Below are positions 5,050 to 41,324 of a DNA stretch of 64,000 nucleotides, in pieces. Location of the stretch: NCBI GenBank assembly GCA_026989335.1, contig JALSJN010000075.1, positions 62,001-126,000 of the forward strand, in the 5' to 3' direction. The position numbers and the translations under genes were made by a program. The stretch is from Thiotrichaceae bacterium. Its GTDB lineage: Bacteria > Pseudomonadota > Gammaproteobacteria > Thiotrichales > Thiotrichaceae. Below the pieces are notes generated by a model that did no database searches, was not told where the DNA came from, and saw only the letters and a program-made list of their open reading frames with translations. Position 1 is the stretch's first letter, and each line of letters opens with the position of its first letter.

Positions 5050-6558
5050 ATGTTTAAACAAATGAAACAACAAAGTTCTAAATTTCGTAAATTAATTGCA
5101 TTCGCAATTTTACTGATCACCTTGCTCTTGTTACTGTTTGTTTTTTCAGCAACTAGAAGTGCTTTAGATGTTTGGGATAGACTTCAACAGTTACCCGAAG
5201 CCTTATTTTATACTTATTCTGCCCTAATCATTGCGGGCTTGTTTTTTAGTTTCTATCTCATCTATAAGCTCTTACGCCCATCTTCAGCGTTATCTGCTAA
5301 GCAAGAGCATGAATATGTATCCCAAGAAACAGTATTAAAAGAGATTTCTAATGCTGAAGAGTCAGGTATGGAAACAAGTGCTCTGCACCGAGAAATAGAG
5401 CATTTAGAAGAGCGTAAAGCAACGGGTAAAGTGTATATTGCTTTATTCGGGGATGTTAGTACGGGTAAATCATCCATCATTAAAGCATTACTTCCTGAAG
5501 CAAAGGTAGATATCAATGTTCAAGGTGGGTCAACTCAGGATATTCATCAATACACATGGGCAAGCACCTCAGGGGATGAATTGGTACTTACTGATTTACC
5601 TGGCAGAAGTGAGGCAGAAGGCTCATTAGACTTGATGGCGCAAGAAGAAGCCATTCGTGCCCAAGTTGTGGTTTATGTGACGGATTCGGATTTATCACGC
5701 AGTCAATTTAATGATATTTTAGAGTTACAAAGCTTTGGCAAGCCCTTAATCATTGCGGTCAATAAAAGTGACCGTTTTAATAATGAGGAAAAAGATTTAA
5801 TCAGAGCTCGGTTTACTGAGCATTTTATAGAAGGTGACTCTAATTCATCTTCTATGAAAATAGTCTTTGTTCAATCAGGGGGGGAAGAAGAAGTTCTAAA
5901 AATATATCCCGATGGGCGGGAAGAAAAAATTCAACGTAAGAGAAAAGCAGATGTTGCGGCGTTAGCAGAATCCCTGCAGAGTGAAATTGATACACAAACA
6001 GAGCTATTAGAATCATTACGGGATGCCAGTGTCTTTGTGCTGGTGAAACAAAAACTTGATAAAGCAAAAGATCAATTCCGACAAGAAAAGGCTGAGTCTA
6101 TTATTAAAAGCTCAACGCGCAAAGCAGTGTTGGGTGCATTAGCAGCGGTAAGTCCAGGTTCTGATCTAGTCATTCAGGGTGTCTTAGGTACACAAATGGT
6201 TAAAGGTCTATGCGCCTTATATGATGTACCTGTACGCCAACTTGATATTGATAAATTATTAAATTTTAGTGGTAGTCAAATGAAGAAAAGTACCCCATTG
6301 TTATTGGCAGTTGCAGGCAATGGTATGAAGGCATTTCCGGGGATTGGTACGGTTACGGGTGGCTTAACGCACGCCGTTGCTTATGGGCTAATTTTTGATG
6401 CATTAGGCCATGCGGTCAATAAAACCTTGCAACAACGTGGTAAGCTACAAGCAGCACCGGCAGCGATTACCTTTAAGGAGATGTTAAGTGAAGATCTTGA
6501 ATCACGTGCAAAGTTATTTGCCAAGCTGGTTTTCGACAAGCAACGAGCAGACAAATGA
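5050..6558 (+). CDS. Membrane-anchored GTPase (Era/YcjF-like, DUF697-type C-terminus)
   Basis: A 502-residue protein. Two N-terminal transmembrane helices (residues about 15-34 and 52-75) are followed by a GTPase domain with the P-loop GDVSTGKSS at 134-142, DLPG (G3) at 182-185 and NKSD (G4) at 238-241. The C-terminal third (about 355-475) is Ala/Gly-rich and hydrophobic, like DUF697 in YcjF-type proteins, and probably inserts in or lies on the membrane. The second GTPase gene begins inside its 3' end, so the two are translationally coupled and likely act as a pair. The start at 5050 has no strong ribosome site; an ATG at 5062 is an alternative. The general family (TRAFAC GTPase plus DUF697) is firm. 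The cellular role is not known. Confidence 0.75.
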   Translation: MFKQMKQQSSKFRKLIAFAILLITLLLLLFVFSATRSALDVWDRLQQLPEALFYTYSALIIAGLFFSFYLIYKLLRPSSALSAKQEHEYVSQETVLKEISNAEESGMETSALHREIEHLEERKATGKVYIALFGDVSTGKSSIIKALLPEAKVDINVQGGSTQDIHQYTWASTSGDELVLTDLPGRSEAEGSLDLMAQEEAIRAQVVVYVTDSDLSRSQFNDILELQSFGKPLIIAVNKSDRFNNEEKDLIRARFTEHFIEGDSNSSSMKIVFVQSGGEEEVLKIYPDGREEKIQRKRKADVAALAESLQSEIDTQTELLESLRDASVFVLVKQKLDKAKDQFRQEKAESIIKSSTRKAVLGALAAVSPGSDLVIQGVLGTQMVKGLCALYDVPVRQLDIDKLLNFSGSQMKKSTPLLLAVAGNGMKAFPGIGTVTGGLTHAVAYGLIFDALGHAVNKTLQQRGKLQAAPAAITFKEMLSEDLESRAKLFAKLVFDKQRADK

Positions 6559-7909
6559 GGACACTACAAATAATAATGCCATGTCGAACAATAGTCATAC
6601 CACAGTCATGAATAAAGGTGATTCTAATATTGATTTAGCTAAAGAGTCTTTAACAGCGCTGCTTGATGATCGTCGAGTTCCTGATTCTGTGCGTAATGTT
6701 TTACAGGAAGATTACCAGCAGTTACGGATCATGTTGGATAAGTTGGAAAATGGTCATTTACATATCGCGGTATTTGGTCGTGTGAGTGTCGGTAAATCAT
6801 CGGTTCTTAATGCTTTACTGGGTAAAGATGCGTTTAGCGTTAGTATTTTGCATGGTGAAACTAAAACTGAAGGCATTGAAGAATGGCAAGAGGTTGATGC
6901 TGGTGGGGTTTACCTCATTGATACACCAGGGATTAATGAAATAGATGGTGAGGAAAGAGAGCGTCTAGCGCATGAAGTCGCTAATCGTTCAGACTTATTG
7001 TTATTTGTAGTTGATAGTGATTTAACGGATGTAGAGCTGAGTGCGTTAAAAACAGTTGCCGCAACCAACCGGCCAATAATTTTGGTGGTTAATAAATCTG
7101 ATCAATATAATGAAAAAGAAGTTCTGCAACTACGTACTATTATTCGTAAACGTGTAACAGGGCTTATTGCTCCTGAAAATATTGTATTTACGGCAGCATC
7201 ACCCAGTCAGCAAACCGTTATTATGGTGGATGATGAGGGCAATGAGACTGAAACAATCCGCCAACGACCTGTTGATATAATAAATTTAAAGTCTCGACTT
7301 TGGGATATTATCGAGGCGGAAGGTAAAACACTGTCAGCATTAAATGCCTCGTTATTTGCGGGTAGCTTAAGCGAGCAACTGGGTGAAAAGTTACTCTCAG
7401 CGCGTAAACAAGTGGGCGAGGACACTATTCATATGTATTGTATTGGAAAGGGTATTGCAGTTGCACTTAACCCTGTACCAGTGGCTGATTTACTAGCAGC
7501 TGCCGCTATCGACGTTAGTATGGTTATTCACTTGTCTCGTATCTATGGTTTACCCATGAGTAAATCAGAAGCAGGGGAGTTGATCAAAACAATTGCGGCT
7601 CAAATGTTGGTGCTGTATGCAACTTTTTGGGCAATACACTTGGCTTCATCGGCATTAAAAATTGGCACGGTAGGGTTTTCTACGATTGTGACAGGGGTGG
7701 CGCAAGGGGCTGTAGCTTGGTATAGCACCTTGGTTGTAGGTCGAGTGGCGGAAGACTACTTAGCAAAAGGGAAGTCTTGGGGAGAAACGGGGCCTAAGCT
7801 TACCGTACAAAATATTTTGGATAGCTTGGATCGAGATTCGATCATGAGTGAGGCAAAAGAAGAAATTGTAGCGTATTTGAAAACATCAAAAAAACCGAAA
7901 AAGTCCTAA
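6488..7909 (+). CDS. Second GTPase of the pair, DUF697 domain
   Basis: A 473-residue protein. The GTPase motifs are all intact: P-loop GRVSVGKSS at 97-105, switch region with Thr near 125-128, DTPG at 145-148, and NKSD at 202-205. A DUF697-like hydrophobic region spans about 310-445 (CIGKGIAVALNPVPVADLLAA onward). There is no N-terminal membrane helix, unlike its partner. The start is a GTG at 6488 with AAGGAG seven bases upstream, inside the previous gene, giving a 71-bp overlap; an ATG near 6581 (MSNNSH) is an alternative that would remove the overlap. The two proteins share domain order but are clearly diverged, so they may be ancient paralogues forming a heteromer. Function unknown; membrane remodelling or stress roles known for related GTPases are only an analogy. 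Confidence 0.8.
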   Translation: MKILNHVQSYLPSWFSTSNEQTNEDTTNNNAMSNNSHTTVMNKGDSNIDLAKESLTALLDDRRVPDSVRNVLQEDYQQLRIMLDKLENGHLHIAVFGRVSVGKSSVLNALLGKDAFSVSILHGETKTEGIEEWQEVDAGGVYLIDTPGINEIDGEERERLAHEVANRSDLLLFVVDSDLTDVELSALKTVAATNRPIILVVNKSDQYNEKEVLQLRTIIRKRVTGLIAPENIVFTAASPSQQTVIMVDDEGNETETIRQRPVDIINLKSRLWDIIEAEGKTLSALNASLFAGSLSEQLGEKLLSARKQVGEDTIHMYCIGKGIAVALNPVPVADLLAAAAIDVSMVIHLSRIYGLPMSKSEAGELIKTIAAQMLVLYATFWAIHLASSALKIGTVGFSTIVTGVAQGAVAWYSTLVVGRVAEDYLAKGKSWGETGPKLTVQNILDSLDRDSIMSEAKEEIVAYLKTSKKPKKS

Positions 7910-7989: not shown

Positions 7990-8664
7990 ATGAATATTTT
8001 AGCTTTTGGACCCAATGGTAGTGGCAAAGGAACGCAGGGCGCAATTGTAAAAGAAAAATATGGTTTAGATCATATTGAATCAGGTGCTATTTTTAGAGAG
8101 CACATCAAAGGTGGTACTGAATTAGGTATGAAGGCGAAGGCCTTTATTGATAGCGGTGACCTTGTTCCTGATGAGATTACGATACCAATGGTATTAGAAA
8201 CTTTGAGTAATTCGAAAGAGAAAGGCTGGTTGTTAGATGGTTTTCCAAGATCATTAGTGCAGGCAGAAGCTTTAGATGCAGCGCTTAAAGAGGCAGGTAT
8301 GGATCTTGATTTTATGATTGAAATAGAACTAGATCGTGAAATTGCTAAGCAACGCATCATGGGACGAAGACTTTGTGCAAATGATAATAATCACCCGAAC
8401 CACATTGCTTTTGATGCGATAAAACCGGTAGAAAAGGAGGGTGAACTGTTTTGTCGAGTTTGCGGTGGTGAATTATCAGCGCGCGCTGATGATCAGGATG
8501 AAGAAGCGATTAATAAACGTCATAATATTTATTATGATAATAAGACAGGCACAATGGCAGCCGTTAACTACTTTAAAAATGAGGCTGGGGCTAAGGTGAT
8601 TTCAGTGAATGGATCTAAAGCGATTGGTGATATTTCTGAGGAAATAATGTCTCAACTGACATAA
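7990..8664 (+). CDS. adk: Adenylate kinase with Cys/His LID domain
   Basis: A 224-residue nucleoside monophosphate kinase (ATP + AMP to 2 ADP). The P-loop is GPNGSGKGTQ at 7-16, rather than the usual GAPGAGKGTQ. DGFPRS at 83-88 is the AMP-binding segment, and GRRL (125-128) opens the LID. The LID carries C129-X5-H135 and C155-X2-C158, a potential metal site. E. coli Adk has no such site, but adenylate kinase of Desulfovibrio gigas is reported to bind Zn/Co/Fe through a C-X5-H-X15-C-X2-C set, as I recall it. AGGAG precedes the ATG. A bidirectional terminator follows. With APS reductase elsewhere in the window, the enzyme could recycle AMP in sulfur oxidation; that link is inference. Confidence 0.9.
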   Translation: MNILAFGPNGSGKGTQGAIVKEKYGLDHIESGAIFREHIKGGTELGMKAKAFIDSGDLVPDEITIPMVLETLSNSKEKGWLLDGFPRSLVQAEALDAALKEAGMDLDFMIEIELDREIAKQRIMGRRLCANDNNHPNHIAFDAIKPVEKEGELFCRVCGGELSARADDQDEEAINKRHNIYYDNKTGTMAAVNYFKNEAGAKVISVNGSKAIGDISEEIMSQLT

Positions 8665-8722: not shown

Positions 8723-8758
8723 AAAAAAGCGTTCGGCCTACAGGCTAGCGCTTTTTTA
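8723..8758. terminator. Bidirectional terminator between adk and the tyrosine kinase gene
   Basis: An A-run, AGCG...CGCT outer stem and CCT/AGG inner stem, then a T-run. The symmetric A and T tracts suit two convergent genes, both of which end next to it. Confidence 0.8.
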
Positions 8759-38046: not shown

Positions 38047-38895
38047 ATGTTAACTACCAACCCATTCGCAGAGCTTGCTAATGTCTCAGAGCTTATCTCG
38101 CCGACAACGATGCAAATTTATGCGGTTTTAATGTTTCTTTTAGTTGTCGGTGGAACCATTCTCGACATAGTACACAAGAAAAGCATGAAGTACTTTAATG
38201 AATATACTGACAAGGCTAACGCTAAAGCTACCAAGCAAGTAAGCGCAAGTGATATGGCTAGTATGCGAGTAAAAGTATTAACCAGTGAAGTTTTAACCTC
38301 TTCAGAATTTTCAAATCAAAAACGTCGTTTGTCGCATTTGTTAACGATGTATGGTTTTACACTTTTTGTTATTACATCGGCGATCATGATCTTTTTCTAC
38401 GGTGATGCGGCGGGTGGTGAAACACCTTCAATCTGGCCTTTATTATGGCACCTAGGTGCATTAATGCTGTGTGTGGGTGGTTACTGGTTCTGGTTTGCTA
38501 TCCGTGTGGATGTCGCTGCAGAAGGTAAGAAGTGGTACGATATCGCTCCAAGAGCTGATATGTTCATCCTTTCTTTATTGGGTACTTGTACCTTTGCATT
38601 ACTTTGGTCTTTCACCAGTGGTGCAGGAATATTCTTCTTATTATTCCTAATTTCTAGTTTGTTCTTATTTGGTGGTGTGTATTGGTCGAAATTTGCTCAT
38701 ATGTTCTTTAAGCCTGCTGCTGCTTATCAGAAGAAAGTGCTTGAAGCTAATGGTCATAATCAAAACTTGCCTTATGTCCCAGACTTATCAAGTGCTGAAG
38801 TGCATGAAAAATACCCTGATATTCCTACTTACATGGGTAAAAACCCACCTAATATGGGGCCTGGTATCAGACGCGAATCAGCTAATCATTACTAA
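38047..38895 (+). CDS. aprM: APS reductase membrane subunit AprM
   Basis: A 282-residue integral membrane protein with about five to six helices (for example YAVLMFLLVVGGTILDI near 25-41, LTMYGFTLFVITSAIMIFFYG near 101-121, LLWHLGALMLCVGGYWFWFAI, FILSLLGTCTFALLWSF and a following GIFFLLFLISSLFLFGGVYW). It matches AprM, which sulfur oxidisers of the Apr lineage with aprMBA order use to anchor APS reductase and pass electrons to the quinone pool. The Cys/His residues near the fourth helix are unassigned. It precedes aprB by 39 bp. AAGGAGT is the ribosome site. Confidence 0.9.
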   Translation: MLTTNPFAELANVSELISPTTMQIYAVLMFLLVVGGTILDIVHKKSMKYFNEYTDKANAKATKQVSASDMASMRVKVLTSEVLTSSEFSNQKRRLSHLLTMYGFTLFVITSAIMIFFYGDAAGGETPSIWPLLWHLGALMLCVGGYWFWFAIRVDVAAEGKKWYDIAPRADMFILSLLGTCTFALLWSFTSGAGIFFLLFLISSLFLFGGVYWSKFAHMFFKPAAAYQKKVLEANGHNQNLPYVPDLSSAEVHEKYPDIPTYMGKNPPNMGPGIRRESANHY

Positions 38896-38934: not shown

Positions 38935-39417
38935 ATGCCTACATATGTACATATGACTCGATGTGATGGTTGTGGCGAATGTGTTGACATTTGCCCATCA
39001 GATATCATGCACATTGATAAAACGATACGCCGTGCTTACAACATAGAACCCAATATGTGTTGGGAGTGTTATTCTTGTGTAAAAGCTTGCCCACATAATG
39101 CAATTGACGTGCGTGGTTATGCTGACTTCACACCGTTAGGAAGCTCCGTTCGCGTACACCGTGATGAAGAGAAAGGCGTTATCGCCTGGAGAATTATCTT
39201 CCGTAACGGAACCAAAGATTTTGAATTGCTTGCACCCATAACTACCAAACCATGGGGAGAAGGTATACCTGATCTAAATACTGCTGAAGCACCGAGCGAT
39301 GAAATGCGTAATAGTCAGTTGCTCTATAACGAGCCGAAGTATATTCGTATGGATGAAGGTGGTTTACACACCTTTGAAACCAATAAGTTATCATTGAAAG
39401 AAGGGGTTTACTACTAA
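38935..39417 (+). CDS. aprB: Adenylylsulfate reductase beta subunit
   Basis: A 160-residue iron-sulfur subunit carrying two [4Fe-4S] clusters: CDGCGECVDICP at residues 10-21 and CWECYSCVKACP at 42-53. The clusters pass electrons between AprA's FAD and the membrane. The C-terminal half (EGIPDLNTAEAPSDEMRN and later) wraps around AprA in the known structure. It overlaps aprA by one base (TAATG). Confidence 0.97.
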   Translation: MPTYVHMTRCDGCGECVDICPSDIMHIDKTIRRAYNIEPNMCWECYSCVKACPHNAIDVRGYADFTPLGSSVRVHRDEEKGVIAWRIIFRNGTKDFELLAPITTKPWGEGIPDLNTAEAPSDEMRNSQLLYNEPKYIRMDEGGLHTFETNKLSLKEGVYY

Positions 39418-41324
39418 TGGCTTACAAGACTATTATTGAAGATGATATTGATGTGCTTGTAGCAGGTGCTGGTCTAGGTGGTACAGGTGCTGCTTTTGAA
39501 GCGAGATACTGGGGCAAAGACAAGAAGATTATTATTGCTGAGAAAGCAAATATTGATCGTTCTGGAGCTGTTGCGCAGGGTCTTTACGCCATCAACTGTT
39601 ACATGGGAACGCGTTTCGGTGAAAACAACCCAGAAGATCACGTACGTTATGCACGTATGGATTTAATGGGTATGGTACGTGAAGATTTACTGTTTGATAT
39701 GGCGCGCCATGTGGATTCGGCAGTACACCAGTTTGAAGAATGGGGTATGCCAATCATGAAAGACCCAGAGACAGGTAATTACCTGCGTGAAGGTCGTTGG
39801 CAAATAATGATTCATGGTGAGTCATATAAGCCTATGGTTGCAGAAGCGGCTAAGAAATCAGCCGACAAAGTCTTTAACCGTATTTGTGTAACACATCTTC
39901 TTATGGATGAGTCTACAGAAAACCGTGTTGCTGGTGCAGTTGGTTTTAATGTGCGTACCGGTAACTACCACGTATTTAAATCAAAGACAGTAATCGTGGG
40001 TGCTGGTGGTGCTTCAAATATTTACAAGCCTCGTTCAGTAGGTGAGGGCGCTGGTCGTGTTTGGTATGCACCATGGTCATCAGGTTCTGCTTACGGTCTT
40101 ATGATTGAAGCGGGTGCTAAAATGACCCAGATGGAGAACAAAATAGTTCTTTGTCGTTTTAAGGATGGTTATGGTCCTGTTGGCGCATACTTCTTACATC
40201 TTAAGACTTATACGCAGAATGCTGCGGGTGAAGAGTACGAATCAAAGTGGTTCCCATCATTGTCTAAAGACATTGTAGGTAAAGAATACTTGGATACGGA
40301 AGGTCAGCATTTATCACATAAGCCGATTCCAACCTGTTTACGTAATCATGCCTTTATTAACGAAGTAAATGCAGGTCGTGGCCCGATATACATGGTTACA
40401 ACAGAAGCATTCCAAGATCCGCATCTTGAAGAAATTGGATGGCATAACTTCTTAGGTATGACGGTTGGTCAAGCAGTACTTTGGGCAGCTACTGATGTTG
40501 ACCCCAAATACGAAAACCCTGAACTTACAACATCTGAGCCTTATGTAATGGGTTCTCACGCTACTGGTTGTGGCGCATGGTGTTCTGGTCCTGAAGATTT
40601 ATCGCCTAAAGAGTACTTCTGGGGGTATAATCGCATGACCACTGTTCAAGGTTTATTCGGTTGTGGTGATGCTGTTGGTGGAACACCGCATGCATTCTCC
40701 TCAGGTTCATTTACTGAAGGTCGTTTAGCGGCAAAAGCGGCAATTCAATATATTGCTGATGGTAAAGCTGATGGTATTAGTGTTACCGATGCGCAGATTG
40801 AAAAGCGTCGTGAAGAAGTTTATAAACCAATGGATATTTACCGTACTTATCGTAATCATATTACAGCAGGTTCAGTAAACCCATATTATATTAACCCAAG
40901 ACAAGGTCTTGATCGTCTACAAAAGATCATGGATGAGTACTGTGGTGGTGTAACGGTAAGTTACATGACTAACGCTAATCTTTTGACAATAGGTCTTAAG
41001 AAGATGGGTCTACTGGCTGAAGATTGGCAAAATGGTATAGCTGCAGAAGATATTCATGAGTTACTACGTGCTTGGGAACTTAAGCATCGTATATTAACTT
41101 CTGAGTCTGTATTGCAACATACGCTTTTCCGTGATGAGACACGCTGGCCTGGTTACTACTACCGTGGCGATAAAATGAAGCTGGATGACAAGAATTGGCA
41201 TGTATTAACTGTTTCTCAGCGTAATCCAGAAACAGGTGAATACACCATGGAAAAGGCACCGCTTTATCATTTAGCTGATGATGATGAGGGAGCTAAAGCA
41301 GGTAAGTTGGAAAAAAAGAAGTAG
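39417..41324 (+). CDS. aprA: Adenylylsulfate reductase alpha subunit
   Basis: A 635-residue FAD flavoprotein. In sulfur oxidisers it runs in reverse: sulfite plus AMP to APS, with release of two electrons. The FAD-binding fold starts at DVLVAGAGLGGTGAAFEAR, residues about 12-31. TVIVGAGGASNIYKPRSVGEGAGR near 190-215 and FGCGDAVGGTPHAFSSGSFTEGR near 415-440 complete the flavin site. Length and motifs match known AprA. It is the third gene of aprMBA and is followed by a strong terminator. Whether sat (ATP sulfurylase) or another AMP-releasing route acts with it cannot be seen here; adk lies in the same window. Confidence 0.98.
   Translation: MAYKTIIEDDIDVLVAGAGLGGTGAAFEARYWGKDKKIIIAEKANIDRSGAVAQGLYAINCYMGTRFGENNPEDHVRYARMDLMGMVREDLLFDMARHVDSAVHQFEEWGMPIMKDPETGNYLREGRWQIMIHGESYKPMVAEAAKKSADKVFNRICVTHLLMDESTENRVAGAVGFNVRTGNYHVFKSKTVIVGAGGASNIYKPRSVGEGAGRVWYAPWSSGSAYGLMIEAGAKMTQMENKIVLCRFKDGYGPVGAYFLHLKTYTQNAAGEEYESKWFPSLSKDIVGKEYLDTEGQHLSHKPIPTCLRNHAFINEVNAGRGPIYMVTTEAFQDPHLEEIGWHNFLGMTVGQAVLWAATDVDPKYENPELTTSEPYVMGSHATGCGAWCSGPEDLSPKEYFWGYNRMTTVQGLFGCGDAVGGTPHAFSSGSFTEGRLAAKAAIQYIADGKADGISVTDAQIEKRREEVYKPMDIYRTYRNHITAGSVNPYYINPRQGLDRLQKIMDEYCGGVTVSYMTNANLLTIGLKKMGLLAEDWQNGIAAEDIHELLRAWELKHRILTSESVLQHTLFRDETRWPGYYYRGDKMKLDDKNWHVLTVSQRNPETGEYTMEKAPLYHLADDDEGAKAGKLEKKK

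Follow-up and report, generated by a model that had tools for sequence, protein, structure and literature searches.

A sulfate-reducer-type adenylate kinase in a Thiotrichaceae bacterium that encodes APS reductase

The adenylate kinase (Adk) of Desulfovibrio gigas is represented by the structures PDB 2XB4, 3L0P and 3L0S (Mukhopadhyay et al. 2011, as cited in PMC8843374). APS reductase (Apr) joins sulfite and AMP into APS (PMC3779200), and a supply of AMP to Apr by an adenylate kinase is chemically sensible. In the APS/ADP route of Sulfolobales adenylate kinase is a named step (PMC8551704), and in D. alaskensis it is listed among the essential genes for sulfate activation (PMC4215793). These papers establish the importance of an adenylate kinase to the APS route but do not require it to be of D. 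gigas type; our literature search for sulfur oxidisers with a second adenylate kinase found nothing.

We analysed 64,000 nucleotides of the genome of a Thiotrichaceae bacterium (GCA_026989335.1, contig JALSJN010000075.1, positions 62,001 to 126,000), hereafter the window. Its adenylate kinase locus comprises the following features.

7990..8664, + strand: adk, D. gigas-type adenylate kinase (NF011102), 224 aa, intact (open reading frame, PDB and NCBIfam match, alignment)
8008..8037, + strand: P-loop GPNGSGKGTQ, residues 7-16 (translation)
8374..8463, + strand: predicted LID metal-site segment C129-C158, with C129, H135, C155 and C158 (translation, alignment)
8723..8758, no strand: inverted repeat between A and T runs, lying between adk and a convergent polysaccharide gene (direct reading)

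The reading frame is unbroken from ATG (7990) to TAA (8664) and is preceded by an AGGAG ribosome-binding site. The best PDB match of the product is 2XB4, together with 3L0P (E ~1e-88; the next group follows at 1e-49), with 66% identity over 219 aligned positions. Among the NCBIfam adk models listed, NF011102 (PRK14529) is the only one whose cut-off it passes, at 382.4 bits against 331; the general adk model falls narrowly short (165.8 against 168). The alignment with 2XB4 further shows the core motifs to be kept: the P-loop, DGFPR, R-X-DD and KR. From these matches, identification as a D. gigas-type Adk is well supported; the enzyme family is already known, and the window adds one laterally acquired member to it. 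Downstream, the inverted repeat is likely to act as a two-way terminator for adk and the convergent polysaccharide gene; it is absent from the output of our promoter and terminator consensus scan, whose result was not above chance. Two overlapping GTPase genes lie immediately 5' of adk (5050-6558 and 6488-7909; MMR_HSR1, the second with DUF697), and this GTPase-GTPase-adk order is also kept in two other loci (L009 and L039).

The preliminary description of this locus had pointed to C129-X5-H135, C155-X2-C158 and the P-loop as parallels to the D. gigas enzyme. All are present, and the alignment with 2XB4 bears the parallel out: the four LID residues correspond one for one to D. gigas C129, H135, C151 and C154. 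The same C-X5-H...C-X2-C set, with all four positions kept, recurs in every one of the more than 110 NF011102-type adenylate kinases recovered, so the motif is not a product of chance; the GPNGSGKGTQ P-loop is found in nearly all of them. In other adenylate kinases of Thiotrichaceae the LID is of the four-Cys type or of the metal-free gammaproteobacterial type. By analogy with the D. gigas site, the LID of the window Adk is predicted to bind metal. The hosts of the NF011102 family include organisms both with and without Apr. Judged from these sequences, the Cys/His LID is a hallmark of the family and not an adaptation of this genome or to Apr.

Among gammaproteobacteria the enzyme is rare, in keeping with its P-loop having been called non-standard for the class: in an evenly sampled set of 369 genomes of the class, an NF011102-type adk exceeds the cut-off in three, namely this genome and two genomes, G098 and G218, that belong together to another genus. 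Within the window's own family it occurs in 19 of 63 genomes, a count that takes in two matches at 315-328 bits, just below the NF011102 cut-off. The closest relatives in named genomes, at 80-93% identity, belong to Thiotrichaceae (Cocleimonas, Leucothrix) and to Desulfobulbales. In the tree the Thiotrichaceae copies are nested within Desulfobulbales, and an AU test rejects a Desulfobulbales clade without them (p-AU 0.000135). Nesting and rejection together point to an old lateral transfer, the nesting giving its direction, from sulfate reducers to Thiotrichaceae. Branches inside the Desulfobulbales clade have modest support (80-95), which leaves the precise donor loosely defined. The AU test does not reject that the Thiotrichaceae copies arose once (p = 0.185), and either one or two transfers would fit. 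The G098 and G218 copies sit elsewhere, among other sulfate-reducer sequences, and represent a separate transfer.

The GC content of adk is 0.39, the same as that of the window, compared with 0.47-0.60 in donor-group loci; its composition is fully adapted to the host, as would suit a transfer long ago. In the Desulfobulbales loci examined, adk has none of the neighbours that flank it in the window, which suggests that adk moved as a single gene. Altogether, the lateral acquisition of a sulfate-reducer-type kinase, as first suggested, is well supported by its rarity in the class, the tree and the AU test.

Two observations on related copies may be recorded here. Three genomes of the window's genus (L104, L105 and L106) carry a fast-evolving form of adk, 63-67% identical to that of the window and on a branch of 0.93, with the LID ligands kept; a second adk was not found in these genomes, which are incomplete drafts. 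In addition, a record named as an Aquificaceae MAG (L024) holds a Thiotrichaceae adk, the same gene being present in a genome of the window's family (G386); the Aquificaceae name is probably wrong.

The preliminary description had asked whether the genome holds a second, standard adk. It does, of another type: a 214-aa enzyme with a four-Cys LID (L002), encoded divergently from purB and 5' of a Rieske protein gene, both neighbours being named by sequence reading. Many carriers in the family likewise have two adk genes in a PF00406 search. In the same search of draft genomes, the sulfate-reducer-type adk is the only one found in Cocleimonas flava DSM 24830 (G369) and in an uncultured Cocleimonas (G379), both identified through their contig coordinates and listed as 100% complete. 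The D. gigas-type enzyme can thus serve as a housekeeping kinase; in these two genomes the native adk has apparently given way to the foreign enzyme, which argues for a general role and against the dedicated AMP-handling kinase that had been envisaged. Separately, the four-Cys adk of another genome (L112, G371) is interrupted within the match by an in-frame TAG, reflecting either a sequencing error or decay.

We now propose, as the probable joint explanation, that this adk was acquired long ago as a single gene of Desulfobulbales-like origin and has a general adenylate kinase role. Its product would be a working adenylate kinase (ATP + AMP <-> 2 ADP), in which one His and three Cys would form a structural metal site that holds the LID. 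The donor would have been a Desulfobulbales-like sulfate reducer and the recipient an early member of the Thiotrichaceae branch that holds Cocleimonas and Leucothrix. The enzyme would act as a general adenylate kinase, as a second enzyme here and, in Cocleimonas flava, where the search turned up no other, as the sole one. Sulfur oxidisers may use Adk to regenerate the AMP for APS reductase from two ADP, and any adenylate kinase could do this. We infer the activity of the window Adk, its metal binding, its direction in vivo and its physiological role.

The strongest competitor to this general role, though itself unlikely, is a kinase dedicated to Apr: sulfite oxidation by AprBA would drain AMP, the second enzyme would refill it by 2 ADP -> ATP + AMP, and the purB-linked adk would serve growth. 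Such a division of labour would suit the place of adenylate kinase as a named step of the Sulfolobales route, and some of the genomic distribution as well. Within the family, aprA occurs in 18 of 19 carriers of the kinase and in 24 of 44 others (p = 0.0015, without correction for kinship); the one carrier that lacks aprA is a genome 69% complete. The gene is also present in 38 of the 43 genomes that hold the nearest Adk relatives. Carriers in the family thus nearly all have aprA, and these proportions leave room for a real link to Apr. As a rule, though, the proposed tracking of the kinase with aprBA is not supported. In the class sample the D. gigas-type adk is missing from 104 of 106 aprA-bearing genomes, while G218, listed as 100% complete, has the kinase and not aprA. 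Among 247 Desulfobacterota, 32 have both genes, 17 only this adk, 66 only aprA and 132 neither, so that 17 of 49 carriers lack aprA. The link had been called unsupported should the Cys/His LID be common in gammaproteobacteria without Apr; this applies in part, since the LID does occur without Apr. The lack of any other adk hit in Cocleimonas flava, the ~31 kb between adk and apr and the different origins of the two also weigh against dedication.

Two further patterns favour some tie between Apr and adenylate kinases. First, extra adk genes are commoner in Apr-bearing gammaproteobacteria: at least two PF00406 adk genes occur in 55 of 106 aprA-bearing genomes versus 12 of 263 others in the class sample, and in 29 of 47 versus 4 of 111 with one genome per family, a comparison that counts extra copies regardless of type and is not corrected for lifestyle, lithoautotrophy being a possible confounder. 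Several of the exceptions, with at least two adk genes and no aprA, come from families with Apr-bearing members, so the pattern may mark sulfur-oxidiser lineages and not Apr itself. Second, in nearly all genomes of a Thiothrix-like genus (g277; L261, L263) an ordinary adk with a metal-free LID follows aprA in the same orientation, ~150 bp further on. This tight pairing is confined to the Thiothrix-like genomes, whose aprA is of another lineage than that of the window. Both patterns keep a general link between Apr and Adk alive, not one for the window enzyme in particular. We discarded the idea that adk generally neighbours apr: one of ~45 apr neighbourhoods of the class sample has an adk within ~5 kb (L241), and the D. 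gigas-type adk was found in none of the apr neighbourhoods examined.

It is conceivable, if doubtful, that gammaproteobacterial oxidisers using the APS route need extra Adk, and gain it through additional copies, through an adk that follows aprBA (Thiothrix) or through the sulfate-reducer enzyme (Cocleimonas/Leucothrix), sometimes displacing the native one. This raises the question of whether AMP is limiting for sulfite oxidation through Apr and extra adenylate kinases are kept for that reason. As a separate observation, the four-Cys Adk of many gammaproteobacterial families bears a C-terminal tail of ~100-315 residues that is Lys-rich and often Ala-rich (L118, 862-2070, - strand; also L274-L284, L286-L288 and L290), with KKAAPAKK-like repeats resembling histone H1 or AlgP tails; a literature search on such a Lys/Ala-rich Adk tail found nothing.

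The presence of APS reductase in this genome, part of the initial reading, is confirmed in the window itself, where the apr genes provide context without being linked to adk.

38047..38895, + strand: membrane protein gene immediately 5' of aprB, in the position of aprM (several hydrophobic stretches)
38935..39417, + strand: aprB, APS reductase beta subunit
39417..41324, + strand: aprA, APS reductase alpha subunit, gammaproteobacterial lineage

The aprA product scores 1065 bits, where the cut-off is 642. The order resembles aprMBA of Allochromatium vinosum (PMC3779200); a Pfam search of the 38047..38895 protein gave no match.

A joint acquisition of adk and aprBA from a sulfate reducer in one event, as had also been suggested, is very improbable. 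Thiotrichaceae and Desulfobulbales do both carry both genes, but the window AprA is 86-99% identical to that of other Thiotrichaceae, 81-88% to the same AprA lineage in other gammaproteobacteria and only 44-46% to AprA of Desulfobulbales, while Adk reaches 80-89% to Desulfobulbales. The AprA is thus of a gammaproteobacterial lineage, and these identities rule out that adk and aprA were acquired together.

Least probable of all is that adk derives from a Desulfobulbales contig in a metagenome bin: the draft genome does have 4.2% listed contamination, but adk lies on a 136-kb contig that also holds the gammaproteobacterial aprA, its flanking genes recur in the same order at 75-94% identity in another Thiotrichaceae record (L009), and the ortholog in the cultured strain Cocleimonas flava DSM 24830, together with the shared flanks, rules contamination out.

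On the preferred reading, of an old single-gene transfer and a general role, an essential enzyme of core metabolism passed from sulfate reducers into sulfur oxidisers, which live in the same sediments and mats, and in Cocleimonas flava it has apparently become the only adenylate kinase.

How the window Adk relates to known adenylate kinases can be set out type by type. With the D. gigas enzyme it shares 66% identity, the P-loop and the four LID ligands in register; it differs by four extra residues, X19 instead of X15 separating H135 from C-X2-C, and by its host, which oxidises sulfur and has a second adk. The X19 spacing is also that of Desulfobulbales. There the enzymes of Desulfobulbus, Desulfocapsa and Ca. 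Electrothrix are 80-89% identical to that of the window, have a LID of equal length and are its neighbours in the tree; their hosts, mostly sulfate reducers, sulfur disproportionators or cable bacteria, differ from the window host in carrying another AprA lineage. The four-Cys zinc LID enzymes (Bacillus/Geobacillus type, 1ZIN; L002 of this genome) likewise have a metal-site LID, with the same fold and active site, but place C-X2-C or C-X4-C where the window Adk has C-X5-H, and are only 33-38% identical. Finally, the metal-free gammaproteobacterial type (E. coli, Thiothrix) shares the reaction and the core motifs with the window Adk, but is ~34% identical to it and has a GRRVH...DD LID without the Cys/His site.
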